Assembly: GCA_002270565.1 (NCBI GenBank)
Contig: NQMI01000098.1
Span: forward strand, 31,711 to 95,710
Length of the DNA stretch: 64,000 bases
DNA from: Stenocarpella maydis
Taxonomy: Eukaryota > Ascomycota > Sordariomycetes > Diaporthales > Diaporthaceae
Direction: 5' to 3'
The position numbers and the translations under genes were made by a program. The notes under the pieces are model-generated. The model searched no databases. It was not told the origin of the DNA and saw nothing but the letters and a program-made list of their open reading frames with translations. Shown in pieces: positions 18,914-28,512 of this stretch (position 1 is its first letter; each line of letters starts with the position of its first letter).

Positions 18914-19210
18914 CGTGTCGTACTCGGGTAGCTCGCAGAATATCATTTCCACTGGCGGCTGCTTCTGTAACATGTAAATCGAATCCTCCACATCATCGAG
19001 AACCTCCGCATCAGTAAGATGCAGGAGATGGACACCAGAACTCACCAATAGTGCTTGCCTGCTGACCCATATACCGGCCCCAGTCATCGCCCATGCTCCT
19101 TGCCGGACCTGTAGCAATCTGACCCGCCCCAGCTCGAATCTGGCTATCGGCCTGTCTGCCGGACCATCAGTTGGCCTATATATTTCAACTTGCCCTAGTA
19201 GGGTTTTTGG
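18914..19210 (-). pseudogene. Fragment of an unrecognised protein gene
   Basis: An open frame of about 98 codons without a usable ATG ends at TAA 18914-18916. It reads smoothly (GQVEIYRP..., WAMTGAGIWVSRQALLVSS, ...EMIFCELPEYDT) with a beta-rich, repeat-like hydrophobic pattern. It is bounded upstream by an in-frame stop, and the surrounding DNA is AT-rich. It looks like the 3' end of a decayed gene. The family is not recognised. Confidence 0.3.
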
Positions 19211-19878
19211 AATTTAAACATCAATATGAGCCTAGACTTTCATATACGTTCCAACAACTGTCAGTGAGATGGCTTTTAACCACGCTTTAAATGAGGATGT
19301 GGACGTCAGATTCTGTTATTTAAACTACGGCGATCCGTCTTAAAATACACCTCACTCTCAAGAAGCTGCTACATAGTGCTACTAGATCCACACGTCGCCA
19401 CCTTGGAGAGAAAGGCTTAGTTGTATAGCTATTTATGCTGTATAGCCGATACATTGCAAGTCTGTAACATGCTTGAATAAACAATTAGGCACATACACCA
19501 TATGCCTTGATACAGGGAGTAGTGCAATAACATGACAGTAATTGCGGCTTTCAAAATAGGGTGGAAGGAGAAAATCCCAAAACGGGTCATAGTTAATTAA
19601 TATACGGCCAAGATCTACCATACACTGGGCACTGAAGGGAGGAGCAGAATAAAATATTATATTTGCAGTCCCTCAAATTAATTGACCCAAGGATGTAGTC
19701 TGCATGTGTATCCTCAGGTGGTAATTATAACAGGTTTGGGTCGGATGGCATAAGCCGTGTTCGAACCCACGTCTTCTGCATCGCCATCACAGTGATCATG
19801 CATAATAGGCGTACGATGAGAATACTCTTCTAGAAAGAAGAGAAAATATGAAAAGAAAAAAAGAAAAAAGAACCAGAG

Positions 19879-20022
19879 GGTCTGGCCGGGGATTGAACCC
19901 GGGACTATTTCATTGTTAGATACTATGTTGACTTAGTGCAGAAGTGAATCGAACTTACCCTCGCGCAAACTGAGCATTAGGGTGAACCCTAAGCGCGAAT
20001 CATACCACTAGACCACCAGACC
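19879..20022 (-). tRNA. tRNA-Pro(AGG) with canonical intron plus a GT-AG insert
   Basis: The acceptor stem GGTCTGG (20022-20016) pairs perfectly with CCAGACC (19885-19879). The D arm GGTCTAGTGG, anticodon stem CGCGC/GCGCG and T arm CCGGG-TTCAATC-CCCGG are all present. The loop TTAGGG puts AGG at the anticodon. A 19-nt intron (19986-19968) sits after G37, with CCCTAA complementary to the anticodon region as in normal tRNA introns. The variable loop is then interrupted by 54 nt (19958-19905) that start GTAAGT, contain CTAAC 11 bases before the end and finish ATAG. Removing both leaves a 71-nt tRNA with the canonical variable loop AGGTC. Without removal of the second insert the gene would be a pseudogene. 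Whether it is spliced cannot be seen from DNA. Confidence 0.8.
19905..19958 (-). other. Spliceosomal-type 54-nt insert inside tRNA-Pro variable loop
   Basis: Begins GTAAGT and ends AATAG, with the branch-like element ATCTAACA in the expected place. Its length and signals match ordinary protein-gene introns elsewhere in this window. tRNA splicing endonuclease normally recognises only the 37/38 intron. Removal would therefore require the spliceosome or an unusual nuclease, or the gene is dead. Confidence 0.7.
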
Positions 20023-21962
20023 AAGGAATGATTGTTGAAAATCTTCATTTAGTTGGCTATATATAGCCTGTACGTAACTAACAACCGTGGGAATTCTCTG
20101 ATGAGAGATTAAACTATAGGAGTACAGTAGTGCGTGTTGTGGGAGTGGCCACCTAGCAGTAGGTGTGTAGTTATTTCAGTTGTGGTAGTAGGTCTTATGG
20201 GATTGGGTACTATGGGAGTGGATTCTGGATATATGGGACTGGGTTTTAGGTATCTTTCGAGTGGGTTCTGTGTGATTGGCGTCTTGGAGTAGGTGCTATA
20301 GAAGTGTGGTAATGGAAGTCTGGGGCTGGGTGTTATGGGGGTGGATGTTATGAGGCTGGGAGGGAGTGGGCGTTGGGCGTTGGGCGTTGGACAATGTAAT
20401 TGTGTACCTATACCCTCTACTGCCCCGTTAAAAATCTTAGAACTTCTACGTTACGACGGTTGTACAGGATTAGGTCTTCTTACAGAGTGCCATCCCACAG
20501 TTATCCTACAGGAGACTAAACTATATGAGACTAACCCACAGGAGGTTATCCTGAGAACCCACCCCATCATATACTTAAGTACCGAATCTCAATTGATGGA
20601 ACGATGGGAGAAGTAGCGTTTGGCACTCCGCTCCATCATTTATGGCTTGTTTCCATACCCAATCAGCGCATTTTCATAATGGAGCCAAGTTCAAGTTGGT
20701 TCATACTATTATCAAGTGATTGTAACCTGCAGGCAGGCAGGCAGGCAACCAGTCTCAATGCAAATCAGGCACCCTGGGTATGGACATCTCGAGGCTCCAG
20801 TCGGGGCGATTCTCAACATTTCTTTTGGTCTATTTCCTTCCAATAGCAATATTCATTCTTCTTTCCCATACCTTTCTCCGTTCTGGTAGTCTTAAGGACA
20901 CAATCACATTGACCAAGTCTCTCAAATGAGAGTCTCCACACGAGGCCAATCTTGATCTCAACCGATGCTTCACTTGATGTTTCATGGCCAGAACCGGTTC
21001 GTGCTTCACTTGAATATACACTGCGGTATTTGCAACTAGGTAAGGAGGCAGCGACTCCCAAGCCACTCTCTACTTATCCCTATGAACTGAATTCTTTAGC
21101 AACATGAAACTCTGCAAGCCAATGCTTAAAAGCCATAGAACCCCTCGACCTCTCCATAAGCTAATTTAGAGACATGCGATCATTGGCATCAGGATCTCGG
21201 TTCCTCAACCTGCCTTTGTAACAGCCTTTCAAGGTGCTGGGCCGAAACAACAATGTTCTGGCACCCTGTATATGGATAATATAGCAGGGGAAGCAGATAC
21301 TGAGCTCTGAATGAAGACACTACTTAGTAAGTACACTTATATTAGCTAGAGTATAGGTCCAACCATCAAGTATAATCCATAACAGCTAGACTGTCCTGAT
21401 CTAACGAGTTTGTTTCATAACCCGGTAATCTGCACTTGCTCGAGATCGCCTTCCTTAGGTGGTACTACGGCAATGAGTCGGTGACATGGGTGACGCATAC
21501 TTGATGTTTGATCTGGCTTGAAACCTGTCTCTGAGACAGTTGGAAATCAGCATCCTGTGACGAGTGCATACAGGAACACGCCCCTGGTCTCGCCGTCATC
21601 AATACATGCGCATGGGGTGTTTCCTCCTCGCGCCGTTTCACAACCACCAGAGACAACAGAACAGACGTAGGTTGTTAATAAACTTTGGAATTGTATCATT
21701 AGAATCTCCACACTACCCGTAGGTGGGGCCGTCCAAAAAACTCATCAGTACCAATCCATATCCGAGAGAGTGGCACTCATCATCTAAAAAGTCCCCAATT
21801 GTGGTGAAGACACCCCCTCCACCCCCATCAAAGTATTCCATACAAGTGGCTTAACCATGGCCACTCCACTAAACCCATCCGGACTCAAGCGGGCGGGATC
21901 CTATGGGAACCCATCTCCTCTAGTTTTTCTCGACCGCTCCCCTCAAGCCAAAGTGAGACGCC
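20023..21962. other. AT-rich island with G/T minisatellite
   Basis: No coding frame is supported. The 20,100-20,395 part is a degenerate G/T-rich repeat, listed separately. The remainder is AT-rich with many stops in all frames. It is consistent with an old, mutated repeat region, but I saw no transposase or reverse-transcriptase motif. Confidence 0.5.
20100..20395. repeat. Degenerate G/T-rich minisatellite
   Basis: Around fifteen variable copies (about 12-22 bases) of a unit resembling TGTTATGGGAGTGGGT, for example CTTATGGGATTGGG, ACTATGGGAGTGG, ATATGGGACTGGG and GTTATGGGGGTGG. The end is GGGCGTTGGGCGTTGG. The strand asymmetry is strong, with G and T on the plus strand and almost no C. Confidence 0.65.
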
Positions 21963-26410: not shown

Positions 26411-28512
26411 ATGTCTGCACCTGCGAGGATATCACGGCGCCTGGCCAGGCCAGCAACACCAATTCCCCGGGCCAGGCCACAGGCACAATGCCCACGAGCA
26501 GTCACGACATGCTTCCCTCGGAGGACAATTCTGCGCCAGTCTTATGCTGCCACGAGCAGGACCACCCAGGCCAGGCTGTTCTCCGTCAGCGCGTCACGGC
26601 CCGTGGCCACCCCGGATGACTCCTTCGACCCAGCCACGATAGAACGGGAGGCTGACCAGGTCGATGTGTGTATAGTAGGCGGAGGTGCGCCCCCAGTCTC
26701 CTGGAACCTTGCCCTCCCCCATCAGCTCTCTTGTTTGAGTTCAAGCCTGTCTAATCATGTCATTCCGATCCCACAGGCCCAGCAGGCCTCTCTGCCGCCA
26801 TCCGCCTCAAACAGCTCGCCAACCAAGCCGGAAATGAGGGCTTCCGCGTCCTGCTCCTCGAAAAGGCCGGCGAGCTCGGCGCCCATATCCTGTCCGGCGC
26901 TGTCATCCAGCCCAACGCCGTCGAGGAGCTCTTCCCCGACTGGCTGGCCGAGGACAACGAGTCGCGCTTCGACGGCGCCACTCCGGCCGGCCAAGACCAC
27001 ATGCGCTTCCTCACCAAGTCCATATCGCTGCCCCTCCCCGCCCCGCCTCAGATGCACAACAAGGGTAACTACATCCTAAGCCTGAACCAGTTCACAAAAT
27101 GGCTGGGCGACCGCGCCGAGGAGGTCGGCGTCGAGATCTACCCCGGCTTCAGCGCCAGCGAGGTGCTGTACAAGCCCGATGGGAGTGTCCTCGGTGTCGC
27201 CACCAACGACCTGGGCATCAACCGGAGCGGGAAGCCCAAGGACACTTTCGAGCGCGGCATGGAGTTCCACGCCCGCGTCACCATGTTCGGAGAAGGCTGC
27301 CACGGCAGCCTGAGCAAGCAGGTAATCAAGAAGTTTGACCTGCGCAGCAACTCGCAGCCACAGACGTACGGGCTGGGCATCAAGGAGGTCTGGGAGGTGC
27401 AGCCGGAGAAGTTCAAGAAGGGCGACATCACGCACTCGCTGGGCTACCCGCTCCCCTACGACACATACGGAGGTGGGTGGATGTACCACTTTGGTGACAA
27501 CCTCGTGTCCGTCGGCCTGGTCACGGCGCTTGACTACCCGAACCCGTGGATGAGCCCGTACCAGGAGTTCCAGAAGATGAAGAAGCACCCGCTATACGCA
27601 TCCGTGCTGGAGGGTGGGAAGTGCATCTCTTACGGCGCGCGCGCGCTGATCGAGGGTGGCTTCCAGTCCATCCCGAAGGTCGCCTTCCCAGGCGGCGCGC
27701 TCATCGGCGACTCGGCTGGCTTCGTCAACGTGCCCAAGATCAAGGGCACACACAACGCCATGAAGTCGGGTATGCTGGCCGCCGAGTCCGCGTGGACGGC
27801 GCTGAGCAACAACGCCGACGACGGCTCCGTCTTCCTGTACGACTACGAGGAAAGCCTGCGCGAGAGCTACATTTGGAAGGAGCTGAAGGAGGTCCGCAAC
27901 CTGCGGCCGTCGTTCCACTCGCCGCTGGGGCTGTACGGCGGCCTGATGTGGTCTGGGCTGGACACCTTCCTGCTCAAGGGCCGGGTGCCCTGGACCTTTA
28001 AACACAAGGCCGACCACGCGGCGACGAAGAAGGCCGACGAGTGCCCCAAGATCGAGTACGAGAAGCCTGACGGCAAGCTCAGCTTCGACATCCTCACCAG
28101 CGTCAGCCGCACGGGGACGAACCACGAGGAGGACCAGCCCGTGCACCTGCAGGTCAAGGACTGGGAGAAGCACACGGCCGAGACGTGGCCGCCCTACAAG
28201 GGCCTCGAGAACAGGTTCTGCCCCGCCGGGGTATACGAGTACGTCGAGGATGCGTCCAAGCCCGAGGGCGTGAGGTTCCAGATCAACGCGCAGAAGTGAG
28301 TGTCTTCTTTGTCGGGCAGTTTTACGCCACGTGTTAAGTGCACTGTTACTCCCCCATCCCTGACTCCCGCCGCATATTGAACCCGAACACTGACGCTGTT
28401 TCAACCACACAGCTGCATCCACTGCAAGACATGCGACATCAAGGCGCCAAACCAGGACATCAACTGGCAGGTGCCTCAGGGTGGTGAGGGTCCCAAGTAC
28501 TACATGACATAG
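26411..28512 (+). CDS. CIR2: Electron transfer flavoprotein-ubiquinone oxidoreductase
   Basis: Three exons (26411-26684, 26777-28295 and 28413-28512) give 630 residues, the expected size. ETF-QO takes electrons from reduced ETF, which collects them from fatty-acid and amino-acid dehydrogenases, and passes them to ubiquinone in the inner mitochondrial membrane. The N-terminal 65 residues are Arg/Ser-rich and suit a mitochondrial presequence. The FAD-binding motif [16 protein letters not shown] (about 85-100) is created by joining exons 1 and 2. The conserved core includes [40 protein letters not shown] and [22 protein letters not shown]. The C-terminal 4Fe-4S ferredoxin-like segment has CPAGVYEY and, from exon 3, [10 protein letters not shown]. 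All key cysteines are present. CIR2 is the yeast name. Confidence 0.96.

Follow-up and report, generated by a model that had tools for sequence, protein, structure and literature searches.

Candidate spliceosomal introns in tRNA-Pro(AGG) and other tRNA genes of the fungus Stenocarpella maydis

Results

A tRNA-Pro(AGG) gene interrupted by two introns

The DNA analysed here (hereafter the window) is a stretch of 64,000 nucleotides from Stenocarpella maydis (contig C310, positions 31711-95710), and on its minus strand, at 20022..19879, lies a tRNA-Pro(AGG) gene of 144 nt with two introns, as established from the sequence and by ARAGORN on the joined form. Exon 1 (19987..20022, on the minus strand like every feature of this gene) comprises tRNA positions 1-37, that is, the 5' strand of the acceptor stem, the D arm and the anticodon stem and loop up to G37, and is the same in the other AGG loci; it holds TGGTCTAGTGG (20005..20015), which we take, by its consensus, to be the A box of the internal RNA polymerase III (Pol III) promoter. 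An ordinary tRNA intron of 19 nt follows position 37 (19986..19968, a 37/38 intron), and pairing is possible between its CCCTAA and the TTAGGG in the anticodon loop; of the four distinct AGG sequences described below, three allow this pairing. Exon 2, TGCGCGAGG (19959..19967), supplies positions 38-46 and is followed, in the variable loop at 46/47, by an insert of 54 nt (19958..19905) that has the layout of an mRNA-type (U2-type) intron: a 5' splice site GTAAGT (19953..19958), a branch-site sequence CTAAC (19915..19919) whose branch A at 19916 lies 11 nt before the intron end, and a 3' splice site TAG (19905..19907; the last bases of the insert are ATAG). Exon 3, TCCCGGGTTCAATCCCCGGCCAGACC (19879..19904), contributes the T arm and the 3' strand of the acceptor stem and includes GGTTCAATCCC (19889..19899), presumably the B box, again by its consensus. 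A run of TTTTTT at 19864..19869 is a likely Pol III terminator.

The acceptor (GGTCTGG/CCAGACC), anticodon (CGCGC/GCGCG) and T (CCGGG/CCCGG) stems of this gene are perfect, and when the 54-nt insert is taken out exactly from GT to AG the variable loop reads AGGTC, which places the insertion at 46/47. In the joined form ARAGORN recognises a tRNA-Pro(AGG) whose intron measures 19 nt; in the unspliced form it finds no tRNA. The original prediction, which had described a Pro(AGG) gene with perfect stems, the usual intron after G37, a second insert of 54 nt running from GTAAGT through a branch motif 11 bases from its end to ATAG, and an AGGTC loop restored by its exact removal, is thereby confirmed to the base, CTAAC being the branch motif. 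Scans of the whole window with Rfam at its gathering cut-off and with ARAGORN called no tRNA, which we put down to the introns: the Rfam tRNA model extends its alignment into the insert and so gives the gene only 22 bits, below its cut-off of 29. The insert contains a B-box-like sequence, GTTCGATTC, to which the Rfam alignment runs and which could suggest a second T arm, but this sequence is absent from the other Pro inserts and was treated as chance. Downstream of the gene, at 19744-19788 on the minus strand, there is a tRNA-like remnant in which a T-arm-like GGTTCGAAC is set between GATGGC and GCCATC.

All Pro(AGG) and Pro(CGG) copies found carry a variable-loop insert

We searched the genome (53,543,916 bases in 312 contigs) with the 5' half of the Pro gene at up to three mismatches and obtained seven matches, namely five AGG loci, one CGG locus and one TGG locus. 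A variable-loop insert is present, besides the ordinary 37/38 intron, in all five AGG loci and in the CGG locus, and the TGG locus has none. Two of the AGG loci (L003 on contig C56 and L005 on C100) are identical across the full 3029-base stretch compared, reflecting either a recent duplication or redundant assembly; counting this pair once leaves four distinct AGG sequences and five distinct Pro inserts of 53, 56, 57, 54 and 57 nt, all of which the search with the 5' half had recovered without recourse to any insert motif. Each of the five begins with GTAAG and ends with AG, and in each the A of CTAAC is located exactly 11 nt from the insert end. When both introns are removed, the four AGG sequences yield one identical tRNA, even though the insert of L004 sits 2 nt further 3', at 48/49 (AGGTC-insert-CCGGG versus AGG-insert-TCCCGGG), a shift that leaves the product unchanged. 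The CGG gene keeps its acceptor stem paired by changes on both strands (GGCCTGG/CCAGGCC versus GGTCTGG/CCAGACC in AGG), runs of at least six T follow all five distinct Pro genes, and neither exon decay nor stem decay, the marks by which tRNA pseudogenes are told, was found in the four AGG sequences or the CGG copy.

A BLAST search of the joined 71-mer against the genome returned six loci only, each aligned over 37-39 nt, and hence no uninterrupted gene in the assembly; several intact Pro(AGG) copies, the outcome named beforehand as telling against a functional gene, were not found there. The cores of the Pro inserts, with their signals left out, resemble one another about as much as shuffled sequences do (z of 0.1-1.9 over 10 pairs, with 7-93 of 200 shuffles matching the real score). 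Since the AGG exons are identical beside cores that have diverged to about this level, the exons are under selection.

Inserts in tRNA-Ser(GCT) and tRNA-Lys(CTT) genes

The one tRNA-Ser(GCT) locus found carries a 60-nt insert at 32/33, and BLAST with the joined Ser(GCT) sequence returned this locus alone, split into 1-32 and 33-81, a search in which one candidate was scored and a diverged intact gene could be missed. For tRNA-Lys(CTT), a search with the 5' half of the gene recovered six copies, of which five (L059, L060, L105, L106 and L121) have an insert in the anticodon region, with junctions at 34/35, 35/36 (three copies) and 36/37. Four of these, once joined, read CTCTTA followed by an ordinary intron of 20-22 nt and are called Lys(CTT) by ARAGORN; unspliced, three of the four are called Gln or His. 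The Lys inserts are mutually related (z of 5.2-9.7 in six pairs). The sole copy without an mRNA-type insert, L054 (C292:210633-210771), has an unusually long anticodon-loop intron of 66 nt.

The remaining interrupted copy, L121 (C44:53600-53850), has in addition a second insert of 63 nt (GTGAG...CTAAC...CAG) at 53/54 in the T arm, where it splits the B box, and its T loop is one C shorter than that of the other Lys copies. This T-arm insert suggests intron gain in progress, and the copy itself may be dead. In total, 12 distinct inserts of 53-63 nt occupy seven positions in 11 distinct tRNA genes (12 loci, one of them a duplicate).

Among the 63 of 1343 candidates scored, the Rfam tRNA model gave 57 hits, which fall to 42 nuclear ones when the 15 on C312, assumed by us to be the mitochondrial contig, are set aside. 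In the 38 of these 42 that were fetched, the GT...CTAAC...AG set occurs in L059 and L060 only, and L052, L062 and L064 show looser forms of the motif with CTGAC, CTAAT or CTGAT. Further tRNA families may be affected, above all those with other B boxes or branch sites. Three other places are recorded as observations: L113 (C236:44960-45190), a possible further interrupted gene, has a tRNA-like 3' end, GTAGGTTCGAACCCTACACTTGGCA, followed by a T run; L112 (C37:67970-68200) is tRNA-like with an insertion of ~60-70 nt in the anticodon region, for which GT-AG ends are possible and CTAAC lies too near the end; and L020 and L021 (C14:6926-7150) form a diverged pair of tRNA-Asn(GTT) genes, separated by 77 nt and inverted relative to each other.

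Splice signals and pattern searches

All 12 inserts start with GTNNG and end with AG, the start being GTRNG in 11 and GTAAG in eight (L060 has GTTAG), and in all 12 the A of CTAAC lies 9-13 nt from the end. These features together (GTNNG, AG and CTAAC at that distance) occurred in none of 199,992 base-shuffled inserts versus 12 of 12 real ones, an excess that is partly by construction, in that the Ser, L105 and L106 inserts had been found by patterns holding CTAAC and the other nine had not. None of the 12 contains a T run longer than four. Joined sequences from 10 loci, among them four of the five interrupted Lys copies (L059, L060, L105 and L106), were all called Pro(AGG), Pro(CGG), Ser(GCT) or Lys(CTT) by ARAGORN.

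A genome search for GTAAG, CTAAC and a B box in succession gave seven matches, all of them tRNA genes (six Pro and Ser(GCT)), versus none in the reversed control. A wider pattern of CTAAC and a B box matched 22 places versus 21 in its control; these 22 comprise 11 intron-bearing tRNA genes, eight in which CTAAC is part of the mature tRNA and three others. The eight, five loci read as tRNA-Val(AAC) (L107-L111) and three Glu loci, were accordingly rejected as intron-bearing, and of the other three L112 and L113 are the tRNA-like loci above and L114 is apparently unrelated. With CTAAC set 69-129 nt before the B box there were 15 matches, fewer than the 23 of the control; two of the 15 belong to intron-bearing loci already described (C200 and C258), and the others, inspected by eye in 80-letter stretches, revealed no new intron-bearing tRNA.

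In the window itself, a loose scan for intron motifs did not exceed shuffled sequence (eight with CTAAC, the window insert included, versus a mean of 10.9; 19 with CTGAC versus 19.0), nor did a test for joined open reading frames exceed its control (7 versus 8). These two tests thus lend no support to a likeness between the inserts and the mRNA introns of this genome. One mRNA intron in the window is supported by homology: it lies between 26686 and 26776 in an ETF-QO gene (matched stretches 26411-28509), whose long exon is 95% identical to a Diaporthe vaccinii protein and one unnamed protein, the next-best being Gnomoniopsis, Cytospora and Pleurostoma proteins at 86-89%, and at ~89 nt it is longer than the inserts. 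By this one gene, the fungus most probably belongs in or near Diaporthe (Sordariomycetes, Ascomycota). In other collections, the Pro insert pattern gave three bacterial matches in GTDB genomes, which we took as chance, and viral contigs gave no match to this pattern or to the 5' halves of the Pro and Lys genes. A generic pattern of intron and B box matched at least 119 stretches in the viral contigs; such a pattern alone is unspecific in a very large collection.

mRNA-type introns in U6 genes of the same genome

The original prediction had pointed to mRNA-type introns in the U6 genes of some fungi, and such introns can be read in U6 genes of this genome as well. With the Rfam U6 model, six matches, two of them over the cut-off, were obtained among the 47 of 2976 candidates scored. 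L116 (C167:53947-54101), over the cut-off, is read as a U6 gene with an mRNA-type intron. L123 (C21:61380-61620; the locus also listed as L117, just under the cut-off) is read as a U6 gene interrupted by two of them, in the order GGCATTT, gtaag...ttag, GGTCAATTTGAAACGATACAG, gtaca...cagcag, AGAAGATTAGC. L118 (C301) and the truncated L122 (C68) look like decayed U6 copies with such introns, and L115 (over the cut-off) and L119 resemble U6 and have no interruption. A B-box-like sequence lies within three of the U6 introns, those of L116, L122 and L123. The U6 genes thus bring into this genome the known fungal precedent for the splicing of Pol III transcripts.

Discussion

We consider it very probable that the 54-nt insert is an ordinary U2-type spliceosomal intron in a functional tRNA gene transcribed by Pol III. 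This reading rests on the anatomy of the gene, on splice signals at every interrupted copy, on the identical tRNA restored from junctions 1-2 nt apart, on identical AGG exons beside diverged insert cores, on the failure of the searches to find an intact copy of either Pro(AGG) or Pro(CGG) and on the lack of a bulge-helix-bulge in the 10 inserts tested (see below). We infer that it extends to the recovered Pro genes with AGG or CGG, to Ser(GCT) and to most Lys(CTT) genes. Of the two possibilities that the original prediction had offered, processing by the spliceosome is now strongly favoured on sequence grounds, all AGG copies found having their own insert with its signals intact.

The other possibility, that introns landed in these genes and silenced them, would make the interrupted genes pseudogenes and leave proline codons to be read by tRNA-Pro(TGG) genes alone. 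Pro(TGG) genes free of such inserts are present (L008 and L028), L121 with its T-arm insert looks damaged, and, in the part of PMC4090602 available, short insertions in the arms of eukaryotic tRNAs are mostly reported from one of many synonymous genes and supposed to mark pseudogenes. Here, however, all the AGG and CGG copies found are interrupted and not one among many, the assembly holds no uninterrupted copy, the splice signals are intact, and each Pro junction restores the tRNA. Moreover, the codons in question are in use, CCC and CCT accounting for 74 and CCG for 49 of the 138 Pro codons in three open reading frames of the window. The identity of the exons in four AGG sequences whose insert cores are at about shuffle level is equally at odds with silencing, since genes dead for that long would show exon decay; nor does the divergence of these cores fit the 'recent' landing that had been envisaged for the Pro inserts. 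We therefore regard silencing as unlikely, perhaps with the exception of L121, and its account of the set as a whole has little chance of being correct.

Even less probable is that the inserts are non-canonical tRNA introns of the kind found in Cyanidioschyzon and archaea and are removed by the tRNA splicing endonuclease. The bulge-helix-bulge consists of a 4-bp helix, formed by the start of the intron with the start of the next exon, and of 3-nt bulges at the cut sites; across all product-equivalent cut positions, the central helix has only 0-2 pairs in each of the 10 inserts tested, those outside L121. Furthermore, this class of enzyme needs no GTNNG, CTAAC or AG, all of which the inserts possess. 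Introns at non-canonical sites, several per gene, are indeed known from archaea, red algae and nucleomorphs (PMC4090602, in the part available), but the yeast enzyme is described as cutting strictly at 37/38 in the accessible portion of PMC4033280.

We give similarly slight credence to the idea that the inserts are copies of a recently spread mobile intron family (introners) without bearing on function. The clear relatedness of the Lys inserts and the absence of the second L121 insert from the other five Lys copies would be in keeping with such a spread, but the likeness among Lys inserts is explained by duplication of whole genes, and the Pro inserts share little beyond their signals. In addition, a BLAST search of the genome with the 12 joined inserts gave 12 matches, all at their own tRNA loci, and thus neither source copies nor an introner family elsewhere, so that the introner origin raised in the original prediction is without support. 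A self-splicing group I or II intron was rejected, since the catalytic core of these introns needs more than 53-63 nt and a scan of window positions 19000-21000 with Rfam at E values up to 5 matched the tRNA model only, with no ribozyme.

If the inserts are spliceosomal introns, Pol III would use the internal A and B boxes to transcribe the pre-tRNA, both introns included, as far as the T run, and the spliceosome would recognise GTAAG and CTAAC, excise the 54-nt variable-loop intron and join G46 to U47. The restored tRNA body could then fold, whereupon tRNA endonuclease and ligase would remove the 37/38 intron. That the spliceosome acts first is likely for Pro, since the endonuclease takes the mature tRNA body as its point of measurement, and for Lys, since the full anticodon is absent before the first splice; in the majority of Lys(CTT) genes the spliceosomal splice would create the anticodon itself.

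Textbook splicing of eukaryotic tRNAs relies on protein enzymes, an endonuclease and a ligase, acting at 37/38. Canonical introns of this kind are present in the same Pro and Lys genes, but the inserts differ from them in their positions (46/47, 48/49, 32/33, 34/35 to 36/37 and 53/54), in their GT-AG ends and branch signals and in having no bulge-helix-bulge where tested. The U6 introns of fungi (S. pombe and others) resemble the inserts in being U2-type introns in a Pol III gene for a small structured RNA. U6, however, is a component of the spliceosome, which makes reverse splicing into U6 readily conceivable, whereas a tRNA is no such component, and the Pro and Lys genes described here additionally have a 37/38 intron, whose removal calls for another splicing system. 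According to the part of PMC10484740 available, fission yeast has mRNA-type introns in U6, and in 2017 U3 and U6 were given as the only small structured RNAs then known to be often interrupted by introns (PMC5832005, accessible text). The same text describes fungal U3 snoRNA introns, which likewise have canonical splice and branch signals within a small structured RNA and whose presence may differ between paralogues (PMC5832005); their host, unlike that of the inserts, is U3 and not a tRNA. The tRNA introns of archaea, Cyanidioschyzon and nucleomorphs are comparable in occurring several per gene and at non-canonical positions, including 45/46 in archaea (PMC4090602, in the part available), but they either form a bulge-helix-bulge or are short (in Guillardia 3-24 nt), whereas those described here measure 53-63 nt and have spliceosomal signals. 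Eukaryotic tRNAs are not known as substrates of the spliceosome in the available part of PMC13149111, and in the accessible open-access literature we found no account of tRNA genes with mRNA-type introns, subscription journals and preprints lying outside this search and an earlier report being possible. The type of intron, mRNA-type in genes for small structured RNAs, is known; the host, a tRNA gene, is new.

Overall, the sequences make it likely that the decoding of CCC/CCU and CCG proline codons, and probably of AGC/AGU serine codons, depends on the spliceosome, with the pre-tRNAs passing through the spliceosome first and those that have a 37/38 intron going on to the endonuclease, and that the anticodons of most Lys(CTT) tRNAs are assembled by the spliceosome. 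The introns would be old in Pro, able to slide by 1-2 nt without change to the product and still being gained, as in the T arm of one Lys copy, which would make tRNA genes live targets of intron gain that tRNA finders do not see. Given the 10 genes in unspliced form, ARAGORN reported nothing for two and a wrong anticodon for six, and tRNAscan-SE 2.0, in the part of its description available (PMC8450103), is presented as searching for non-canonical introns in archaea, eukaryotic tRNA genes being said there to be limited to one intron.

If these introns are spliced, the function of the spliceosome would be directly coupled to translation in this fungus. The spliceosome would be able to handle Pol III transcripts that are compact and highly structured and that leave only ~25 nt of tRNA after the intron, and spliceosomal introns could be gained in tRNA genes. 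This would be a kind of tRNA maturation of which we found no description in the open-access literature as far as it was accessible. Since tRNA finders can miss or misread such genes, other fungi that apparently lack an isoacceptor may conceal genes of the same kind.
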